Below are positions 16,671 through 26,411 of a stretch of DNA of 64,000 nucleotides, one piece after another; position 1 is the stretch's first letter; each line of letters begins with the position of its first letter. Source of the stretch: Thermus antranikianii DSM 12462 (GTDB lineage Bacteria > Deinococcota > Deinococci > Deinococcales > Thermaceae); the NCBI RefSeq assembly GCF_000423905.1, contig NZ_AUIW01000009.1, positions 1 to 64,000 on the forward strand, given 5' to 3'. The notes below the pieces were generated by a model, which was given only the letters and a program-made list of their open reading frames with translations, was not told the DNA's origin and did not search any database. The position numbers and the translations under genes were made by a program.

Positions 16671-16704
16671 ACCTTAGCCGGGGCCGGTTAAGCCCCGGTT
16701 AAGC
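16671..16704 (-). promoter_or_regulatory. Copper-island box promoter for SHOCT-regulator-kinase operon
   Basis: On the minus strand GCTTAACCGGGGCTTAA (16704-16688) contains two GCTTAA half-sites in exact 11-bp register, followed by 11 bp and the -10 TAAGGT (16676-16671). It overlaps the last bases of copA. It implies that the two-component system regulates itself. Confidence 0.65.
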
Positions 16705-19063
16705 TCTTCGGTTGGAATCCCCTCAGCCTCAAGGAGTTGGTGAGCACGAAGAGGCTGGAGAGGCTCATGGCCCCGGCCGCCAGCATGGGGTTCAGAAGAA
16801 GCCCGGTGAAGGGGTAAAGAGCCCCGGCCGCCACCGGAATGAGGAGGATGTTGTAGGCATAAGCCCAGAAGAAGTTGAGGTAAATGGTCCTTAGGGTGCG
16901 CCGGGATAGGAGGATGGCGTGCACCAACCCTTCCAGGCTTGGCGAAAGCAGGATCACATCCCCGGCCTCCACCGCGATGTCCGTGCCCGTGGCCAGGGCG
17001 ATGCCCGCATCGGCCTGGGCCAAGGCGGCGGCGTCGTTGATGCCGTCCCCCACGAAGATCACCTTCCGCCCCTGGGTCTGGAGGTGCCGTATGGCCTCCA
17101 CCTTACCCTCAGGGCGCACCCCGGCCAGCACCTCCTCTATGCCCAAGGCCTCGGCCACCCGCCTGGCCGGGACGGGATGGTCCCCGGTGAGGAGGACGGG
17201 CTTGAGGCCCAGGGCCTTTAAAGCGGCCACCACCCTTCGCGCCTCGGGCTTGGGGGGGTCAAAGACCCCGAAGGCGGCCAAAAGCCTCTCCCCATCCGCC
17301 AGGTAAAGGGGAGTGTAGCCCTTTTGGGAAAGCTCCTGGGCCTCCTGGGGAAGGGCCACCTTGAGCCGCTCCATGAGGGCTGGACCCCCCAGGTAAAGCC
17401 TTCTTCCCTCCACCACTCCCTCGATGCCCTCCCCGGGCAGGGCCCGCACCCCTTCGGCCTCGGGCAGGTTGAGATCCTTGGCTGCCTCCAGAACCGCCTT
17501 GGCGATGGGGTGTTCGCTTCCCCGCTCCAAGGCGGCGGCGAGGCGCAAGGCCTCCTCAGGGCTTAGGGCGAACCCCAGGCGTTCCGTGAGGGTGGGCTTC
17601 CCTTGGGTCAGGGTCCCGGTTTTGTCCAGCACCACGGTATCCGCCCGGGCAAGGCCTTCGATGGCCTGGCCCTTGCGGAAAAGGAGGCCCATTCCCGCCG
17701 CCCTGCCCGTGGCCACGGCGATGGCCGCTGGGGTGGCGAGGCCCATGGCGCAGGGGCAGGCGATAAGGAGCACGGAAAGAAGGGCCACGAAGGCGTAGGA
17801 GAGGCCGGGCCCCAAAAGAAGCCAGAGGGCGAAGGTGATAAGGCCGATGAGGAGCACGATGGGCACGAAGACGCTGGCGATGCGGTCCGCCACCTCCTGG
17901 ACCCGGGGCTTGTAGGCCTGGGCTTCCTCCACCAGGCGGGCCATCTGGGCCAGGACCGTGGCCTCCCCCACCCGGCTTACCCGGATGAGGAGGGGACCTT
18001 CCCCGTTCACCGTTCCCCCCACCACCTCATCCCCGGGCTTCTTGGCCTTGGGGATGGGCTCCCCGGTGAGCATGGCCTCGTCCACATGGCTGAACCCCTC
18101 CACCACCACCCCATCTGCGGGGATGCGCTCCCCGGGAAGCACCCGCACCAGATCCCCGGGGATGAGGGCCTCGGCGGGGATTTCCCTTTCCTCCCCTTCC
18201 TGAACCACCCGGGCGGTTTTGGGCCTCAAGGCCAGGAGCTTGCGGATGGCCTCCGAGGCCTTCCCCTTGGCCTTTTCCTCCAGGTGCTTGCCCAAAAGGA
18301 TCAGGGCCAGGATCACCGCCCCCGCCTCGAGGTAGAGATGGCGGGCCTCCTCCGGGAAAAGGGTGGGAAAGAGCAGGACCAGAAAGGAGTAGAGGTAGGC
18401 GCTTCCTGCCCCCAGGGCCACCAGGGTGCTCATGCCCAGGGAACGGTGCCGGATCTCCGCCAGGGCCTGGCGGAAGAAGCGCCGGCCGGCGTAGAGGACG
18501 GGGAGGGCGGTGAGGGCTTGGAAAAGAGGAGGGAGGTGGGGAAGGGGAAGGAGCAGGGGCCCCATGGCTAGGAGAAGGGTGAGGAAGGCAAAGGGCAAGG
18601 CGATGAGGAGATCCAAGGGGTAAGCGGGGGCCGGTTTTTCCTCCTGGGTTACCTCTAGGGGCTCGTACCCTGCATCCCGGATGGCCTGGCGCAGGCGGGG
18701 AAGGGTCACGGTGTCCGGGAGGTACTCCACAAAGGCCTTCTCCGTGGCCAGGTTCACGTGGGCGGAAAGCACCCCGGGTAGCTTCTTCAAGGCCCTTTCC
18801 ACCCGGGCCACGCAGGCGGCGCAGGTCATGCCCCGGATGGGGATCTCCACCCGGGCCACCACTGGCTCGTAGCCGGCCTCCTCCACCTGCTTCAGGACCT
18901 CCTTGAGGTCTATCCCTTCCTGAAGGCGCAAAAAGGCTTCCTCGGTGGTGAGGTTGACCCGGGCCTCCTCCACCCCGGGGGCGCGCTTGAGCGCCCTTTC
19001 CACCCGCGCCACGCACGAGGCACAGGTCATGCCCTTTACCCCTACCTTCACTTCCAGTGCCAT
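16688..19063 (-). CDS. copA: Copper-exporting P1B-type ATPase CopA
   Basis: CopA pumps Cu(I) from the cytoplasm to the periplasm. The 791-aa protein has two N-terminal heavy-metal domains (GMTCASC near residue 15 and GMTCAAC near residue 81), about eight transmembrane helices with the CPC motif in [15 protein letters not shown], the phosphorylation motif [14 protein letters not shown], and [10 protein letters not shown]. It is the third gene of copZ-csoR-copA, but a 85-bp gap holding an inverted repeat separates it from csoR. Presumed control is by CsoR at the copZ promoter. It is the CPC counterpart of the CPH pump at the other end of the island. Confidence 0.96.
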
Positions 19064-19125
19064 AGCCTCATACCCCCTGGCGGAAACCCTTTGCTTTCCA
19101 CGGGCTGGTGTGTCCTTGGGCCTCT

Positions 19126-19149
19126 ATCCCACCCTGGACCGGGTGGGAT
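19126..19149. repeat. Perfect inverted repeat between csoR and copA
   Basis: ATCCCACCC (19126-19134) and GGGTGGGAT (19141-19149) form a perfect 9-bp dyad with a 6-nt loop, abutting the csoR stop. It could act as a partial terminator that lowers copA expression or as a second CsoR site; it resembles the copZ operator in its CCCACCC/GGGTGGG core. No T-run follows. The 85-bp gap also holds ATACCCCCT at 19070-19078, a CsoR half-site-like string. Confidence 0.5.
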
Positions 19150-19433
19150 CAACGGTACTTGAGGGCCTCCATCAGTTCCTCCACGATTTCCTCCACGTCC
19201 CCCCGCTCGTGGGCGGTGGCCACGTGGTCCCTGAGGTGGGCCCTTAGGACCATCTCCCCCACCCGGTCCAGGGCACCCTCCACCGCCTTGAGTTGCTTCA
19301 GCACGTCCACGCAGTAGACGTGGGGATCCTCCAGCATGCGCAGGATGCCCTCGAGGTGGCCCTTGGCGGAGAGGAGGCGCCTTTTGGCCTCTTCCCGCAC
19401 CTTGGGGTCCAGGTGGAGGGGGTGGCGGGGCAC
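19149..19433 (-). CDS. csoR: Copper-sensing repressor CsoR
   Basis: CsoR represses copper-efflux genes until Cu(I) binds. The 94-aa all-helical protein has the family core AKRRLLSAKGHLEGILRML and LKQLKAVEGALDRVG. The metal ligands are Cys41, His66 and His70, the C-H-H set described for T. thermophilus CsoR rather than the C-H-C of other bacteria. It lies between copZ and copA, and the presumed operator is the dyad at 19658-19675. The GTG/ATG choice is not in doubt: the ATG at 19433 is 9 bp after the copZ stop. Confidence 0.95.
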   Translation of the reverse strand: MPRHPLHLDPKVREEAKRRLLSAKGHLEGILRMLEDPHVYCVDVLKQLKAVEGALDRVGEMVLRAHLRDHVATAHERGDVEEIVEELMEALKYR

Positions 19434-19442
19434 AGGGCCTCC

Positions 19443-19643
19443 TTAGCCCGCCAGGACAGCCCGGTACCCTTCCTCTTCCACCGCCCGGATCAGGGCCTCG
19501 GGGTCCGCCTTGCCCTCCACCAGGGCCTCGGCCCGTTCCAGGCTCACCTCGGCCTTCTCCACCCCAGGCACCTTCATGAGGGCCTTCTTGACCGCCATCA
19601 CGCAGTGGTTGCAGGTCATGCCTTCTACCTTGAGCTTCAGCAT
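19443..19643 (-). CDS. copZ: Copper chaperone CopZ
   Basis: CopZ carries Cu(I) in the cytoplasm to CopA and to CsoR. The 66-aa protein is a single heavy-metal-associated domain with VEGMTCNHCVMAVKKAL near the N-terminus, the two cysteines at residues 11 and 14. The ATG at 19643 follows GGGAGGTG. An upstream extension of 28 codons is non-conserved-looking and crosses the operator, so it is rejected. It is the first gene of the copZ-csoR-copA operon. Confidence 0.94.
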   Translation of the reverse strand: MLKLKVEGMTCNHCVMAVKKALMKVPGVEKAEVSLERAEALVEGKADPEALIRAVEEEGYRAVLAG

Positions 19644-19657
19644 CCTCGCACCTCCCC

Positions 19658-19675
19658 CCACCCCAGGTGGGGTGG
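19658..19675. promoter_or_regulatory. Presumed CsoR operator
   Basis: CCACCCCA (19658-19665) and TGGGGTGG (19668-19675) form an 8-bp dyad with a 2-bp centre. It sits at the expected transcription start of copZ, where binding would block RNA polymerase. Assignment to CsoR follows from the operon content and the G-tract dyads known for this family. Confidence 0.7.
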
Positions 19676-19683
19676 GTACTCTC

Positions 19684-19712
19684 ACCCTAGCGCTTCTTCC
19701 ACCTACCGTCAA
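19684..19712 (-). promoter_or_regulatory. copZ-csoR-copA promoter
   Basis: On the minus strand TTGACG (19712-19707), a 17-bp spacer and TAGGGT (19689-19684). Transcription should start near 19677, inside the operator dyad. Unlike the five box promoters of this island it has a good -35. Confidence 0.75.
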
Positions 19713-19717
19713 GGACA

Positions 19718-19744
19718 AAGGCCCCAAGGAAGACTTGGGGCCTT
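19718..19744 (-). terminator. Terminator of the suf operon
   Basis: AAGGCCCCAA (19718-19727) and TTGGGGCCTT (19735-19744) form a perfect 10-bp stem with a 7-nt loop, 17 bp past the Rieske gene stop. On the minus strand the stem ends in CTT then TGTCCTT. It separates the suf operon from the copZ promoter. Confidence 0.75.
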
Positions 19745-19761: not shown

Positions 19762-20064
19762 TTAGAGGTCCAGGAGGATGGTATCCCCCTCCAGCTTGGC
19801 GGGGAAGACCTTGACGGGCCTGGGGGCGGGAAGGGTCTGCCGGCCTGTTTTCAGATCGAAGCGGGCCCCGTGCCGGGGGCAGACGATCTGGCCGTCTTCC
19901 ACATCCCCCTCGTGGAGGGGGCCGTCGTCGTGGGTGCAGATGTCCTCCAGGGCGAAGACCTCCTCCCCGGTGTAGAGGAGGAGGATGGGCTTCCGGTGCT
20001 CGGGCCTTTTGACCACCAGCCTGCCGTTTTCCAGATCGCCCAGCTTGGCCACCGGGGTCCACAT
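19762..20064 (-). CDS. Rieske [2Fe-2S] ferredoxin-like protein
   Basis: The 100-aa protein has the Rieske ligand set Cys43-x-His45 (CTHDDGPL) and Cys62-x-x-His65 (VCPRHGARFD), which coordinates a [2Fe-2S] cluster. It lacks a membrane anchor, so it is a soluble electron carrier like the small ferredoxin subunits of dioxygenases. No oxygenase partner is nearby. It is the last gene of sufC-sufB-sufD-Rieske, 5 bp after sufD, so it may supply electrons for cluster assembly; that role is inferred from the operon. The hairpin that follows ends the transcript. Confidence 0.9.
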   Translation of the reverse strand: MWTPVAKLGDLENGRLVVKRPEHRKPILLLYTGEEVFALEDICTHDDGPLHEGDVEDGQIVCPRHGARFDLKTGRQTLPAPRPVKVFPAKLEGDTILLDL

Positions 20065-20069
20065 GGCCT

Positions 20070-21362
20070 TCAGATTCTAACCTTTTCCTCGATCACCGCC
20101 TCGAGGTGAGCCCTTAAGGCCTTGAGGGGAATGCGGTTAAGAACGTCCGCCAGGTGGGCCTTGACCAAGAGCTCCTGGGCAAGGCTACGGGGCAGGCCCC
20201 GGGACTGCAGGTAGAAGAGTTGCATCTCGTCCACAGGGGCGGTGGTGCTGCCGTGGGTGCAACGCACGTCGTTGGCCCCGATCTCCAGCTGGGGGATGGA
20301 GTCCACCCGGGCGGTGGGGGAGAGGATGAGGTTGCGGTTGGCCTGGTAGGCGTCGGTCTTCTGGGCTCCCCGCTCCAGCTTGATGAGGCCGGAAAAGACC
20401 GCCCGGGCCTCGTCCTTCACCGCCCCCTTGTAGAGGAGGTCGCTTCGGGTGTGGTGCTCCACGTGGTGCTGCAGGGTGTAGTGGTCGAAGTGTTGGAGGC
20501 CGTGGCCGAAGTAAAGCCCCAGCATCTCGCTTTCCGCTCCTGGGCCCAATAGCTCCGAGGCCACCTCGCTCCTGGCGTAGCGCCCGCCCAGGTTCACCAC
20601 CAGGTCGTTTAAGGCGGCATCCCGCTCCAGCAGGGCCCTTTGCCGGTGGAAGTGCCAGACCCCGTCGCCCAGGGTTTGCACGTGGGCGTGGCGCAGCCGG
20701 GCTCCAGGCCTCAAGACCATCTCCGTGGCGGAGAGGTGCAGGGTGGGGGGGAGGTCCAAGGAGAGGTACTCCTCGATGTAGGCGGCCTTGGCGTTGTCCT
20801 CCAGGAAGATGAGGCTCCGGCCCGCCGAGGCCTTGCCCCCTTCCAGCACCTTGAAGACCCCGAGGGGCTTTTCCACCTCGAGCCCCGCGGGCACGTAGAG
20901 GAAGGCCCCGTGGGTGAAGAAGGCGGAGTTTTCCGCGGCGAACTTGTCCTCCACGTAGACCCCCCGGAAGAGGGTAGCCTCCACCTTACCGGGGTGGGTC
21001 TTCAAGGCCTCGGCCAGGCTAGTGAAGACCAGGCCCTTGGCGGAAAGCTCCTCCGGCACCTCGGCGTAAACCAAATCCGGGCCCACGAAGACCAGAAAGC
21101 CCGAAACATCGGTCTTCTCCAGGCGGCGCTTCACCAGTTCGGGAAGCCCGTCCCGGGAAAGCCTGCGCCCCTTGGGGGTTTCCACCTCTTGTTCCAAGGG
21201 GGCTTCGGAGAGATCCGTGTAGCGCCAGGCCTCGTCCTTCTTGCTGGGGTAGGGGAGGCGGGCGAAGGCCTCGAGGGCCTTTAGCCTTTTCTCCAGCACC
21301 CAGCCCGGCTCCTTTAGGGCCCGGGAGATGGCTTCCACCTGCGTTTTGTCCAGTACCTGCAT
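20070..21362 (-). CDS. sufD: Fe-S cluster assembly protein SufD
   Basis: SufD pairs with SufB in the SufBC2D scaffold that builds Fe-S clusters. The 430-aa protein has the SufBD beta-helix region and the family's C-terminal block with the pattern CTHGSTTAPVDEMQLFYLQ and RSLAQELLVKAHLADVL. An N-terminal helical domain (AISRALKEPGWVLEKR) precedes it. It is third in sufC-sufB-sufD-Rieske, with a 42-bp gap from sufB. The ATG at 21362 begins MQVLDKTQVEAI, and it follows AGGAGG. Confidence 0.95.
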   Translation of the reverse strand: MQVLDKTQVEAISRALKEPGWVLEKRLKALEAFARLPYPSKKDEAWRYTDLSEAPLEQEVETPKGRRLSRDGLPELVKRRLEKTDVSGFLVFVGPDLVYAEVPEELSAKGLVFTSLAEALKTHPGKVEATLFRGVYVEDKFAAENSAFFTHGAFLYVPAGLEVEKPLGVFKVLEGGKASAGRSLIFLEDNAKAAYIEEYLSLDLPPTLHLSATEMVLRPGARLRHAHVQTLGDGVWHFHRQRALLERDAALNDLVVNLGGRYARSEVASELLGPGAESEMLGLYFGHGLQHFDHYTLQHHVEHHTRSDLLYKGAVKDEARAVFSGLIKLERGAQKTDAYQANRNLILSPTARVDSIPQLEIGANDVRCTHGSTTAPVDEMQLFYLQSRGLPRSLAQELLVKAHLADVLNRIPLKALRAHLEAVIEEKVRI

Positions 21363-21404: not shown

Positions 21405-22811
21405 TTAGCCTACGGAGCCCTCCATCTCCAGCTCGATGAGCCGGTTCAGCTCCACCGCGTATTCCAGCGGCAGCTCCTTGGCGATGGGCTCGATGAAGCC
21501 CCGCACGATGAGGGCTGCGGCCTCATCCTCCTTGAGGCCCCGGGTCTGCAGGTAGAAGATCTGCTCGTCGTTGATCTTGGACACCGTGGCCTCGTGGCCC
21601 ACGTGGGCGGTGTCCTCCTCGATCTCGATGTAGGGGTAGGTGTCGGTGCGGCTCTCCGGGTCGATGAGAAGGGCGTCGCACTCCACATTGGCCTTGGCAC
21701 CCCTAGCCCCTTCCAGCACCTTCACCAGGCCCCGGTAGCTGGCCCGGCCCTCCCCCTTGGAGATGCTCTTGGAGACGATGGTGCCCGAGGTGTGGGGGGC
21801 TGCCAGGATGATCTTGGCCCCGGTGTCCTGGTGCTGGCCGGTCTTGGCAAAGGCGATGGAGAGGATTTCCGTGCGGGCCCCGGGCTCCAGGAGGTAGCTG
21901 GAGGGGTACTTCATGGTGACCTTGGAGCCCAGGTTGCCGTCCAGCCACTCGTGGAAGGCATCCCCGTAGACCAGGGCCCGTTGGGTCACCAGGTTGTACA
22001 TGTTGGTGGACCAGTTCTGGATGGTGGTGTAGCGGCTCCTGGCCCCCCGCTTCACCACGATCTCGATGACCCCGGTGTGGAGGCTTTCCGTGGAGTACAT
22101 GGGGGCGGTGCAGCCCTCGATGTAATGCACCTCGGCCCCCTCGTCCACGATGATCAGGGTCCGCTCAAACTGGCCGAACTCGGGGGTGTTGACCCGGAAG
22201 TAGGCCTGCAGGGGAAGCTCCACCTTTACCCCGGGGGGAATGTAGACGAAGGAGCCCCCGGACCAGGCGGCGGAGTTCAGGGCGGCGAACTTGTTGTCCT
22301 CCGGGGGGACCACCTTGGCGAAGTACTCCTTGAAGAGGTCCTCGTACTTCTTCATCCCCTCCTCGATGGCCACGAAGATGACCCCCTGCCGCTCCAGCTC
22401 CTCCCTGACCCGGTGGTAGACCATCTCCGAGTCGTACTGGGCTCCCACCCCGGCGAGCACCTTGCGCTCGGCCTCGGGGATGCCCAGGCGCTCGTAGGTC
22501 CGGCGGATCTCCTCCGGGATCTCCTCCCAGCTCTTGGCGTCCCTCACCTCTGCGGGCTTCACGTAGTAGACCAGGTTGTCCAGGTCCAGGCCCGAGAGGT
22601 CCGGGCCCCAGGTGGGCATGGGCTTTTTCTGGAAGATTTCCAAAGCCCGCAGGCGGAACTTCAGCATCCACTCGGGCTCCCCCTTGTGGTAGCTGATGGC
22701 CTCGATCACCCTCCGGGTGAGGCCCCGCTCGGCCACGAAGACCGGCTTGACCTCGTCCACGAAGTGGTATTTGTACTCTTCGCCCAGCGCCCTAAGATCT
22801 ACCTCGCTCAT
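21405..22811 (-). CDS. sufB: Fe-S cluster assembly protein SufB
   Basis: SufB is the scaffold subunit on which sulfur from SufU/SufS and iron are assembled. The 468-aa protein has [13 protein letters not shown] at the N-terminus, the conserved [13 protein letters not shown] with its cysteine, [17 protein letters not shown], and [19 protein letters not shown], all typical of SufB. The ATG at 22811 overlaps the sufC stop (ATGA) and follows GGAGGG, so the two genes are translationally coupled. Ten extra codons upstream are in frame but lie inside sufC. Confidence 0.96.
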
Positions 22812-23560
22812 GCTCCCTCCTTCACCCTTTCCCGGAGCCACTCGTAGCCCTTAGCCTCCAGCTCCAGGGCCAGCTCGGGGCCGCCCTCCGCCACGATGCG
22901 CCCGTCCATCATCACGTGCACCCGGTCAGGGACGATGTAGTTCAGTAGGCGCTGGTAGTGGGTGATGACCAGGGCGCCGAAGCTGGGCCCCCGCATGGCG
23001 TTCACTCCCCGGGCCACCACCTTTAGGGCGTCGATGTCCAGCCCGGAGTCGGTCTCGTCCAAGACGGCGTAGGTGGGTTCCAGGACCAAAAGCTGCAGGA
23101 TCTCGTTCCGCTTCTTCTCCCCGCCGGAAAAGCCCTCGTTGAGGTAGCGGGAGAGGTAGCCCTCGTCCCAGTCCAGAAGCTCCAGGGCCCGCTTCACCTT
23201 GGCCCAGAACTCCGCCACCCCCACCTCCCGGCCCAGTTTGGCCTGCAGGGCCAGGCGCAGGAAGTTGGCGATGGTGACCCCCGGCACCTCCACGGGGTAC
23301 TGGAAAGCCAGGAAGAGGCCCTTCCTCGCCCGCTCGTCCGGGGATAGATCCAGGATGCTTTCCCCGTCCAAAAGGATATCCCCCCGTTCCACCGTGTACT
23401 CGGGGTCCCCGGCCAGGATCTTGCCCAGGGTGCTCTTCCCGGCCCCGTTGGGGCCCATGAGGGCGTGCACCTGGCCCTTGGGAACCACCAGGTTCACGCC
23501 CTTTAGGATGGTCTCGCCGTCAATGGAAGCCCAGAGGTCGCGGATTTCCAGCTGGTTCAT
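22808..23560 (-). CDS. sufC: Fe-S cluster assembly ATPase SufC
   Basis: SufC is the ABC-type ATPase of the SufBC2D complex. The 250-aa protein shows Walker [15 protein letters not shown]-loop [11 protein letters not shown], signature [16 protein letters not shown], and Walker [16 protein letters not shown] followed by the VVARGVN D-loop region and the switch His in VITHYQR. It lacks transmembrane partners, as expected. It leads the operon downstream of a dyad-containing promoter. The ATG follows AGGAGGC. Confidence 0.96.
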
Positions 23561-23589
23561 CGTTCTGCCTCCTGATGCCGGGTCGGGTT

Positions 23590-23620
23590 CTTACTGCGAC
23601 CCATTCGCAGTAAGAGTATA
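23590..23620 (-). promoter_or_regulatory. suf operon promoter with perfect dyad operator
   Basis: On the minus strand the -10 TATACT (23620-23615) is followed immediately by CTTACTGCGA, a 5-nt loop, and TCGCAGTAAG, a perfect 10-bp dyad (23614-23590). The dyad spans the transcription start, so a bound protein would repress. No -35 is clear. The cognate regulator is not in this window; the sequence does not look like a standard IscR or Fur site. Confidence 0.7.
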
Positions 23621-23648
23621 ACCCCTCCACCCCCTAAAGTATAGTGAT

Positions 23649-26411
23649 TTAGTCGGGATTTGCCAGGTAGAAGCCCAGGGCCTCAGGAAGGGCCAGAGGG
23701 GTGGGAGGAAGGCGCCTTTGGAGCTCGGGGCAGAAGCGGCCCAAAGCCCGGCCCAGCTGGAAGCGGAAGGGTTCGGGGAGAAGGCTTTTCCTCACCTCTG
23801 AAAGCTTTTGCCAGGCGGCCTCCTTCTCTCCCAGGCCTAGAAGAGCCAGCACCTCCACCGCCCGGGCTTGGACTAAAAGGCCAGGGTCTTCCAGGGGAGG
23901 CAGGGCCACCACCTGGGCCAGGGCCTCCCCCAGGTTGCCCTCGCGGACCAGGGCCTCGGCGTAACTCAGGCGGGCCTGGGCCCTGAGGTAGGGGTTTTCC
24001 ACATCCAAAAGGGGTTTTAGAAGGACCTTCCCCTCGGCGGGGGGAAGAAGGAGGGCCAGGAGGCTTGCGGTGTCCAGCCGCAAGGCGGTGTAGCGATCCG
24101 TGGCTTCCCAGGGGATTTGCTCCAGAAGGTCCTCGAGGAGGCGCTGAGCCGTGGGGGCGTGGAGCCCTCCCAGGAAGGGGGCCCGGTAGGGCTGCCCTGC
24201 CTCCAAAAGCAGGTAGGTGGCTCCCAGGCGGAAGAGGGTGCGCAGATGGCGGTAGCGGGCTTCCTTGGGCCTCTCCTCCGTGGTGCGGAAGTAGGCCTCG
24301 GCGGGGACCAAAAGGCTTAGGGCGGCAAAGGGGCGGCCGCGGGCCGCCTCGAGGATCCCGGCCTCGCTTTTCACCCGGGCCCGGGTAAAGGGGTCCTCTG
24401 CTTCGGCCAGGGCCTTCTCCATGGCTTTTCCTGCTTCCTCGTACAGGCCTAGGCGCCGGAGGAGGGTGGCGTAGCGGGCCCGCACCCGGGCCACCTCGTC
24501 CTTGGGGGCTCCTGCTTCCTCCAGGGCCTTTAGGCCCTCCTCCATGCGGAGCTTGGCCTCCAGGCTTCCTAAGCGCATGAGGAGGTCCCCCATCTGGTAG
24601 CGGGCCCTCCCCAGGAGGAGGGGGTCATGGCCCACCCGGGAGAGGGCCTCCAGGGCCTCCTGGTAGCGGCCTAGGTCCTTGGCCACCAGGCCCCGCCACA
24701 GGTATACCCGGTCTTGCAGGAAGGGGGCCACGGGAAGCCCTTGCGCCTCCTCCACAAAGTGGGCTGCCTTCTCGTAATCCCCTTTCCAGCGCTCCACCGC
24801 CGCCATGACCAAAAGCCCCTCCGCCTGGGCGGTATCGTCCAGGAGCTTGAGGTCCTCCTTGGGGGGCAGAAGCTCCTCCGCCTCCTTGTAAAGGGCGGCG
24901 TCCGCCTTGGCCTCCGCCGCCTTGATGCGGGCCCAGGTGCGCAAGGAGGGGTTTTGGGCTTCCGAGAGCACCCTGAGGGCTTCCTCCGCCTCGGGGTGGG
25001 CGTACTGGCCCAAGACGGCCCGGTAGCGCACCACCACCGCGGCCAGGGCCTCGAGGTCCTCCCGGGGCCAGGCCTGGGCTTCCTGCCAAAGCCCGGGAAG
25101 GAGGGCCAGCCGGGCGGGATCCTCCTGGAGAAGATCCAGCAGTATCTGGGTTTCCCCCGCCTTGTAGGCGTGGTGGAGCTTGCGGAAGAGGTTTTCCTTG
25201 GGGAAGAAGGAGAGGGCCAGGCGGTGGAGTTCCCTGGGGGCTTCCTGGGGAAGGAGGCTTCTTAGGGCGGGGCGCACCAAGCCTTCCCCCACCCAGTCCA
25301 AAAGAGCCCTCTCCGCCTGGGAAAGGCGTTCCAGAGGCTTGCCCAGGGCTTTTTCTAAAAGCTCTGCGGGAAACGCGGGATCGGCCTCGGGGCTGAAGGC
25401 GGAAAGGGCCAGGAGCAGGGGCTTTAGGGCCGGGTCGTCCTGGAGGGGGGTCTTGGGGTCGTGCTTGGCGGCCTCGAGAAGGACCAGGCGGGAAAGCTCG
25501 CCGAAGTTGCGCCCCGCCTGGTTCACCAGGGCCTCCAGCCTCTCCGGGGGCAGATGGGGAAGCCGTTCCCGCACGAAGCGCCTGGCCTCCTCCCGGCTCG
25601 GAGGGGAAAGGGGCTGATGGGGCAGGGTAGGGGGTGGCTCGCTTAGGGCCGCCACGTAGGGGATGGTCAGAGCTTTTAGGAAAGGTTCCAGCCAGATGGC
25701 GAGCTTTCGTTGGGTGCCGTCTGGGCCCCGCAGGGGGAGGCCTTCCAGGGTTCCCTCCGCCTCAGCCCTGAGGAGGAGGGGGCGGCCTTCCCGGTTCAGG
25801 CCCCGGGCCAAAAGGGCCAGCACTTCCTGTTCCAAGGCTCCCTGCAGGATGTAGGGCTGGGTGGGGGAGAGCTGGGCCAAAAGGGCCCGCACCTCCTCCC
25901 CTATTCCCAGGCCCTCGGCTAAGGGGACCAAAGCCTGGGCCAGCTCCCCCCCCAGGTTGAGGAGGAAGGGTTCCTTGCCCGGCAAAGCGGAAAGGGCACG
26001 GTTCAAGGCGGCTAGGAGGACTCCCTTGCCCGTGGCCGGCCCCCCCACCACCACCATCTGGGGCTTCCCCCCGGCTTCCAGCTCCTTCAGAAAGCGTCGG
26101 AAGATGCGGCGCTTGTCCCGGCCCAGGGTCTTGCGGGCGCTTTCCAGGAAAAGCTCCGCCGGGGGAGGGGGGGGTGGGAGGCCCGCCTCCTGGTACAGGT
26201 CGGCGATGACCCCGTAAAGCCTTTCCTTCTCCTCGGGGCTTCCCAGGTCCTTGTAGAGGATGTTGCGCACGGTCCCCGCCTTCCCGCCCCGCTCGGCCAT
26301 GAGGGCCTCGAGCCACCTTAAGGAGCCCCGCTTGCCCCGATGGTCCCGGCCCTTAAGGTGGGGACGGAGGTCTTCCAGGTAGCGCAGCCAGGGTGTATTG
26401 GCCTCTGGCAT
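23649..26411 (-). CDS. Large P-loop protein with TPR-like repeats
   Basis: This 920-aa cytoplasmic protein is not recognised. A small N-terminal domain (RGKRGSLRWLEALMAERGG, KAGTVRNILYKDLG) precedes a proline run. An ATPase core follows, with a P-loop MVVVGGPATGKGVLL at about residues 119-133, where Gly replaces the usual Ser/Thr after GK. The rest, from about residue 340, is helical and repeats TPR-like units such as EALEALSRVGHDPLLLGRARYQMG and LYEEAGKAMEKALAEAED. This order (small domain, NTPase, TPR) resembles STAND-type ATPases used as signalling switches, but that is a shape argument. The ATG follows a -10-like TATAGT by 9 nt. The gene sits between suf and aceA with its own promoter. 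Confidence 0.75.
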   Translation of the reverse strand: MPEANTPWLRYLEDLRPHLKGRDHRGKRGSLRWLEALMAERGGKAGTVRNILYKDLGSPEEKERLYGVIADLYQEAGLPPPPPPAELFLESARKTLGRDKRRIFRRFLKELEAGGKPQMVVVGGPATGKGVLLAALNRALSALPGKEPFLLNLGGELAQALVPLAEGLGIGEEVRALLAQLSPTQPYILQGALEQEVLALLARGLNREGRPLLLRAEAEGTLEGLPLRGPDGTQRKLAIWLEPFLKALTIPYVAALSEPPPTLPHQPLSPPSREEARRFVRERLPHLPPERLEALVNQAGRNFGELSRLVLLEAAKHDPKTPLQDDPALKPLLLALSAFSPEADPAFPAELLEKALGKPLERLSQAERALLDWVGEGLVRPALRSLLPQEAPRELHRLALSFFPKENLFRKLHHAYKAGETQILLDLLQEDPARLALLPGLWQEAQAWPREDLEALAAVVVRYRAVLGQYAHPEAEEALRVLSEAQNPSLRTWARIKAAEAKADAALYKEAEELLPPKEDLKLLDDTAQAEGLLVMAAVERWKGDYEKAAHFVEEAQGLPVAPFLQDRVYLWRGLVAKDLGRYQEALEALSRVGHDPLLLGRARYQMGDLLMRLGSLEAKLRMEEGLKALEEAGAPKDEVARVRARYATLLRRLGLYEEAGKAMEKALAEAEDPFTRARVKSEAGILEAARGRPFAALSLLVPAEAYFRTTEERPKEARYRHLRTLFRLGATYLLLEAGQPYRAPFLGGLHAPTAQRLLEDLLEQIPWEATDRYTALRLDTASLLALLLPPAEGKVLLKPLLDVENPYLRAQARLSYAEALVREGNLGEALAQVVALPPLEDPGLLVQARAVEVLALLGLGEKEAAWQKLSEVRKSLLPEPFRFQLGRALGRFCPELQRRLPPTPLALPEALGFYLANPD

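Follow-up and report, generated by a model that had tools for sequence, protein, structure and literature searches.

The sufC promoter region

The suf genes of Thermus antranikianii lie on the minus strand of the 64,000-nt stretch of contig NZ_AUIW01000009.1 that was analysed as a whole (hereafter, the window). The first gene of the operon is sufC (22808–23560, named from its sequence), which is followed by sufB (21405–22811), sufD (20070–21362) and, as the last gene of the cluster, a gene for a Rieske-type [2Fe-2S] ferredoxin-like protein (19762–20064), these three being named by sequence recognition. A copper cluster, recognised by eye and likewise entirely on the minus strand, adjoins suf (16688–19727), and contains a P-type copper ATPase, a CsoR-like regulator and a small copper-chaperone-like protein (19443–19727). 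Upstream of sufC, on the same strand, are an AGGAGG ribosome-binding site located by inspection (23568–23573), a −10 hexamer TATACT (23615–23620; TAT[A/G]CT in the extracted Thermaceae promoters) and, 17 bp from it, a −35-like hexamer found by inspection, also TATACT (23638–23643), which is TAGACT in some relatives and matches TTGACA poorly.

Directly after the −10 hexamer on the minus strand, about 30 bp upstream of sufC, is the perfect dyad that the original prediction had placed there: CTTACTGCGA-N5-TCGCAGTAAG (23590–23614; full stretch CTTACTGCGACCCATTCGCAGTAAG, with a 23-bp core, TTACTGCGAATGGGTCGCAGTAA, at 23591–23613), whose 10-bp arms lengthen to 11 bp if a flanking T/A pair is counted. 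A genome search for further copies, suggested at the same time, left the sufC copy as the sole one at up to three mismatches, both in the window and in the 2.16-Mb genome. A perfect 10-bp dyad is not in itself rare in 64 kb, and its significance by chance alone is not impressive: with spacers of up to 12, such dyads have 10 placements at five sites in the window, against a first-order Markov expectation of 3.2 placements on average. The dyad matters because it is conserved across relatives, not because it is improbable.

Could the dyad act in RNA, as a hairpin in the suf leader (an attenuator, or a stability or translation element)? Transcription from the left arm would yield an RNA with a 10-bp stem, its leader having a folding energy of −16.2 kcal/mol. 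However, the start predicted from the −10 hexamer is some 7 nt beyond it (about 23608), within the left arm, and a leader beginning there lacks the stem; moreover, the left arm stays in contact with the −10 hexamer in most relatives, unrelated promoters use the same motif, and no known RNA element in Rfam attains its gathering score. Because the predicted start falls inside the left arm, a leader hairpin is very unlikely.

Conservation of the dyad and of its centre

The original prediction was that the dyad spans the suf start and serves a regulator, and absence of the dyad from the suf promoters of relatives had been set beforehand as what would refute it. The claim survives this test: among 50 Thermaceae genomes, of which 49 have a detectable sufC orthologue, 48 carry the dyad, including all 27 Thermus genomes, at a nearly fixed distance from the predicted −10 hexamer. 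Members of Meiothermus (g4) and of genera g2 and g3 also carry it. The generalised motif TTAYTGCGA-N5-TCGCARTAA, allowing up to three mismatches, has exactly one match in each of the 27 Thermus genomes, always at the sufC promoter. Genus g5 (G049) has no dyad at its suf promoter, though the −10 hexamer is kept, and the dyad is absent from genera g13 and g14 as well.

The 48 boxes reduce to 22 distinct sequences, in which 72% of the pairs about the dyad centre are complementary; moving the centre by 1–2 bp drops complementarity to 13–26% in this set. The boxes are thus inverted repeats of approximately 7-1-7 form with a fixed centre, as in Fur-family operators. Read in this way, the Thermus box is TGCGAAT-G-GGTCGCA (centred on 23602 in the window), that of most Meiothermus is TGCGAGT-G-ATTCGCA, and the pooled Thermaceae half-site is TTAyTGCGAnY. 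In g3, where the arms at first seem more widely spaced, there is a 6-bp insertion between the −10 hexamer and the box, which explains the apparent difference, and the box itself (TGGTAAC-G-GTTTGCA) retains the 7-1-7 spacing.

Probable Fur-family character of the box

The original prediction had found no likeness to Fur sites, a view that does not stand once the dyad is correctly centred. The 7-1-7 repeat TGCGAAY-n-RTTCGCA differs by one base in each half from the TGAGAAT-n-ATTCTCA form of the Fur box, and its half-site, TTGCGAAY, is akin to the Nur half-site TTGCaa, intermediates being present in relatives. The Thermaceae boxes also grade into sequences that look like Fur boxes in sister families, where TCAGGAATCATTCTCAATAG and TTAGGAATCATTCCTAATAG (f3), AGGAATGACTCTCAATAAG (f2) and CTTAATGACAATCGGTCGCAATAAG (f4) occupy the same place behind the suf −10 hexamer. 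Apart from suf, the best match to the box in each of the two g3 genomes is about 50 bp upstream of a gene for an FbpB-like ferric ABC permease, which is followed by that for FbpC, and the homologous site in G012 (TGCGAATCATTATCA) has one half that is the canonical TGATAAT Fur half-site. No such box was found at fbpB in the Thermus fbp operon. The Thermus half-sites depart from the usual TGATAAT, with asymmetric right inner bases (GGGTCGCA), and within Thermus the dyad is confined to suf, whereas Fur regulons usually have many targets.

This restriction to suf would also suit an operator for a regulator outside the Fur family, in line with the original prediction, for example one of DtxR/MntR type or an undescribed Fe–S sensor. 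DtxR-family genes are present in all 50 Thermaceae genomes at E ≤ 0.001 (48 of them above the family cut-off), and the f3 variant TTAGGAATCATTCCTAA has TTAGG...CCTAA ends in common with DtxR boxes. However, the DtxR box is TTAGG-N9-CCTAA, with a wider spacing than the N7 of the f3 variant, and elsewhere in Bacteria the exact motif adjoins Fur-family genes and targets of Nur/Zur type. We consider such a regulator improbable, and a Fur-family box remains the preferred reading.

The same motif across Bacteria

When 84,980 prokaryote species were scanned for exact matches, the motif was found in 117 stretches, of which 80 were listed, 68 of these being outside Thermaceae. Among the matches listed, the neighbours of the 68 non-Thermaceae loci include at least 17 FUR-family proteins (Pfam), a count that takes in related Bacteroidota; by a rough estimate, which assumes some three Fur-family genes per genome, well under one such adjacency would be expected by chance in 68 loci. 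Metal-uptake or sodF genes lie beside the motif in about 10 further cases among the matches listed. Among these neighbours, NicO, CbiM, PDGLE, ZnuA, Nramp and SBP_bac_5 are each represented twice, and one Fe superoxide dismutase gene (sodF) adjoins the motif in Streptomyces. The motif overlaps promoters of genes that are metal-related or encode Fur-family proteins: sufC and fbpB within Thermaceae, and Fur, NicO, CbiM, ZnuA, Nramp and sodF genes elsewhere. The original expectation of a different kind of regulator is hard to reconcile with these neighbours, or with the box at a ferric-iron transporter in a sister genus.

In Bacteroidota, the motif (TTATTGCGA-N5-TCGCAATAA) is in the promoter of the Fur-family gene itself (at least 14 loci), with the same outer sequence and spacing as in Thermaceae, consistent with autoregulation. 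At several Bacteroidota loci, the Fur-family gene is divergent from one for an FAD-dependent oxidoreductase, the two being likely to form an autoregulated pair. The Bacteroidota protein shows no more than distant similarity to the paralogues of Thermus, its best match being FurC/Zur in most cases. At three loci from Streptomyces and another actinobacterium (L154, L173, L182), the exact motif is near a reading frame with a TsaD domain (tRNA threonylcarbamoyltransferase-like).

In Streptomyces, the nickel sensor Nur controls sodF and nickel uptake, and its box, tTGCaa-N5-ttGCAA, overlaps the sodF promoter (PMC3919588). The Thermaceae box shares with it TTGC half-sites, a 5-bp spacer and overlap with a promoter, and Streptomyces loci have the exact Thermaceae-type motif upstream of sodF and of an SBP_bac_5 (NikA-like) gene. 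The likeness is one of box geometry, and the target in Thermus, unlike those of Nur, is suf. It appears that in several phyla the motif's outer sequence and spacing serve Fur-family regulators that respond to different metals; the box does not disclose which metal is sensed.

Which Fur-family protein might bind?

Fur-family genes are present in all 50 Thermaceae genomes, with at least three proteins in all but one, an incomplete assembly. In T. antranikianii, FurB (contig 17, 18536–18928) scores 250 bits against a cut-off of 200 for the NCBIfam model 'manganese-dependent PerR'; FurA (contig 17, 11387–11827) is nearest to PerR/Fur, yet falls under the cut-offs, and by elimination would be the Fur; and FurC is Zur-like, its Meiothermus relative adjoining znuA. 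No regulator gene's presence tracks the dyad across the genomes compared. Such co-occurrence is uninformative because FurA and FurB are near-universal in Thermaceae and orthologues of both are found in nearly all relatives that lack the dyad (G049, g13, g14). Family f3 has FurB, with FurA absent at E ≤ 1e-22, and f5 shows the reverse.

The binder of the dyad would be FurA or FurB, with a slight lean towards FurA by elimination. The Zur-like FurC is less likely: the one Meiothermus zur–znuA promoter considered has a different box, TGATAAC-N2-GTTATCA. This candidate Zur box, with a 2-bp centre, lies in a divergent znuA–zur promoter (L084, 1870–1990). At the Thermus furA and furB promoters, no suf-type dyad indicative of autoregulation was found. 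Five Meiothermus furA promoters (L061, L062, L065, L066, L069) have a conserved dyad, TTATGCGAT-N4-ATCGCAAT, in which the TGCGA half-site of suf recurs with one extra base between the halves.

An IscR-like element over the −35 region

A second element, which had escaped the original prediction, is just upstream of the dyad: AATCCCGACTAAATCACTATACTTT (23636–23660, minus strand), which overlaps the −35-like hexamer. The 25-bp IscR type-1 consensus is ATASYYGACTRWWWYAGTCRRSTAT, and the element matches it at 19 of 25 positions, a score attained at two positions out of about 128,000 in the window; in relatives the match rises to 20 of 25. Its right half is weak in Thermus. The element starts 39–40 nt upstream of the −10 hexamer in 46 promoters and is conserved order-wide, persisting in G049 although the dyad is lost there; in genus g13 of family f4 it is clearly palindromic and lies over the −10 hexamer (ATAATCCTGAGTGTATCGGTCGGGATTGTA; palindromic version AATCCTGAGTGTATCGGTCGGGATT). 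In Thermus it overlaps the last codons of the upstream gene (N-P-D-stop), and part of its conservation there could be coding, but in most Meiothermus no long frame enters the element, which argues for constraint at the DNA level.

Might the dyad itself, then, be a site for IscR (or another Rrf2 protein) or for SufR, regulators that commonly govern suf promoters? There is an IscR-like gene beside iscS, but the dyad lacks IscR type-1 sequence, to which the promoter's closest match is the separate element at 23636–23660. The SufR operator consensus is CAAC-N6-GTTG (PMC8593673), and neither CAAC nor GTTG occurs in the promoter. We find an IscR, Rrf2 or SufR site at the dyad scarcely credible; here the original prediction, which had seen no likeness to either IscR or SufR sites, was right, the type-1 match falling on the upstream element. 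The dyad is better regarded as a Fur-family box.

The gene beside iscS encodes an Rrf2 protein (G000 C10) with the arrangement C-x6-C-x5-C, its three cysteines being kept in 10 Thermus proteins, and thus lies in an Fe–S neighbourhood. Its nearest solved relative by sequence is 4cic, a BadM/Rrf2-family regulator. Against the NCBIfam equivalog TIGR02010 (IscR) it scores 100.8 bits, below the cut-off of 207.6, so it is not filed as IscR; it is nevertheless IscR-like and may work in an IscR-like manner.

A model for suf regulation, and its likeness to E. coli

From the position, conservation and symmetry centre of the dyad, the kinship of its motif to Fur-family sites and the presence of suitable regulator genes, we infer repression, its signal and a binding paralogue, as follows. 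The dyad most probably serves as the operator for a metalloregulator of the Fur family whose metal-loaded dimer would repress suf, with an additional IscR-like input at the −35 region. The dimer would bind the 7-1-7 inverted repeat from the base immediately after the −10 hexamer, covering the start site and therefore blocking RNA polymerase; when metal became scarce or the sensor was oxidised, the repressor would leave and sufCBD would be made. The IscR-like Rrf2 protein probably binds the element overlapping the −35 region, perhaps as an activator, given the poor −35 hexamer, and the promoter would integrate metal status with Fe–S status. More tentatively, and rather doubtfully, the Fur-family sensor, possibly of the manganese-dependent PerR type rather than an iron Fur, might be devoted to suf as the only high-affinity target of this sequence in Thermus, in which case manganese or peroxide status, and not iron alone, would gate Fe–S assembly.

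We found no published study of suf, IscR or PerR regulation in Thermus in the literature searched. In E. coli, the suf operon responds to two regulators, the repressor Fur and the activator IscR (PMC8593673, PMC12594620), and suf in Thermus looks to be wired in much the same way, a putative Fur-type operator at its promoter being combined with an IscR-like input, the sequences having diverged: the Fur box of E. coli is canonical and its IscR site is of type 2, whereas Thermus has a TGCGAAY half-site and a type-1-like element. The Thermus cluster also differs in being a minimal sufCBD, and its wiring is predicted from sequence. The dyad would accordingly be a conserved operator of a familiar type, a box of the Fur family whose half-site has diverged, and it illustrates how such a box may drift in sequence while its place and geometry are kept. 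What is new is the assignment of the box to suf in Thermaceae and its pairing with an IscR-like element, a testable arrangement that connects suf control in a deep-branching thermophile with that of E. coli.

Elements resembling the upstream suf site (AATCCCGAC / GGTCGGGATT) recur in sister genera upstream of furB (L263, L264, L266) and of fbpB (L101, L105, L107, L108). Their recurrence at the promoters of perR-like and ferric-transporter genes is a hint that iron genes may belong to an IscR-like regulon.
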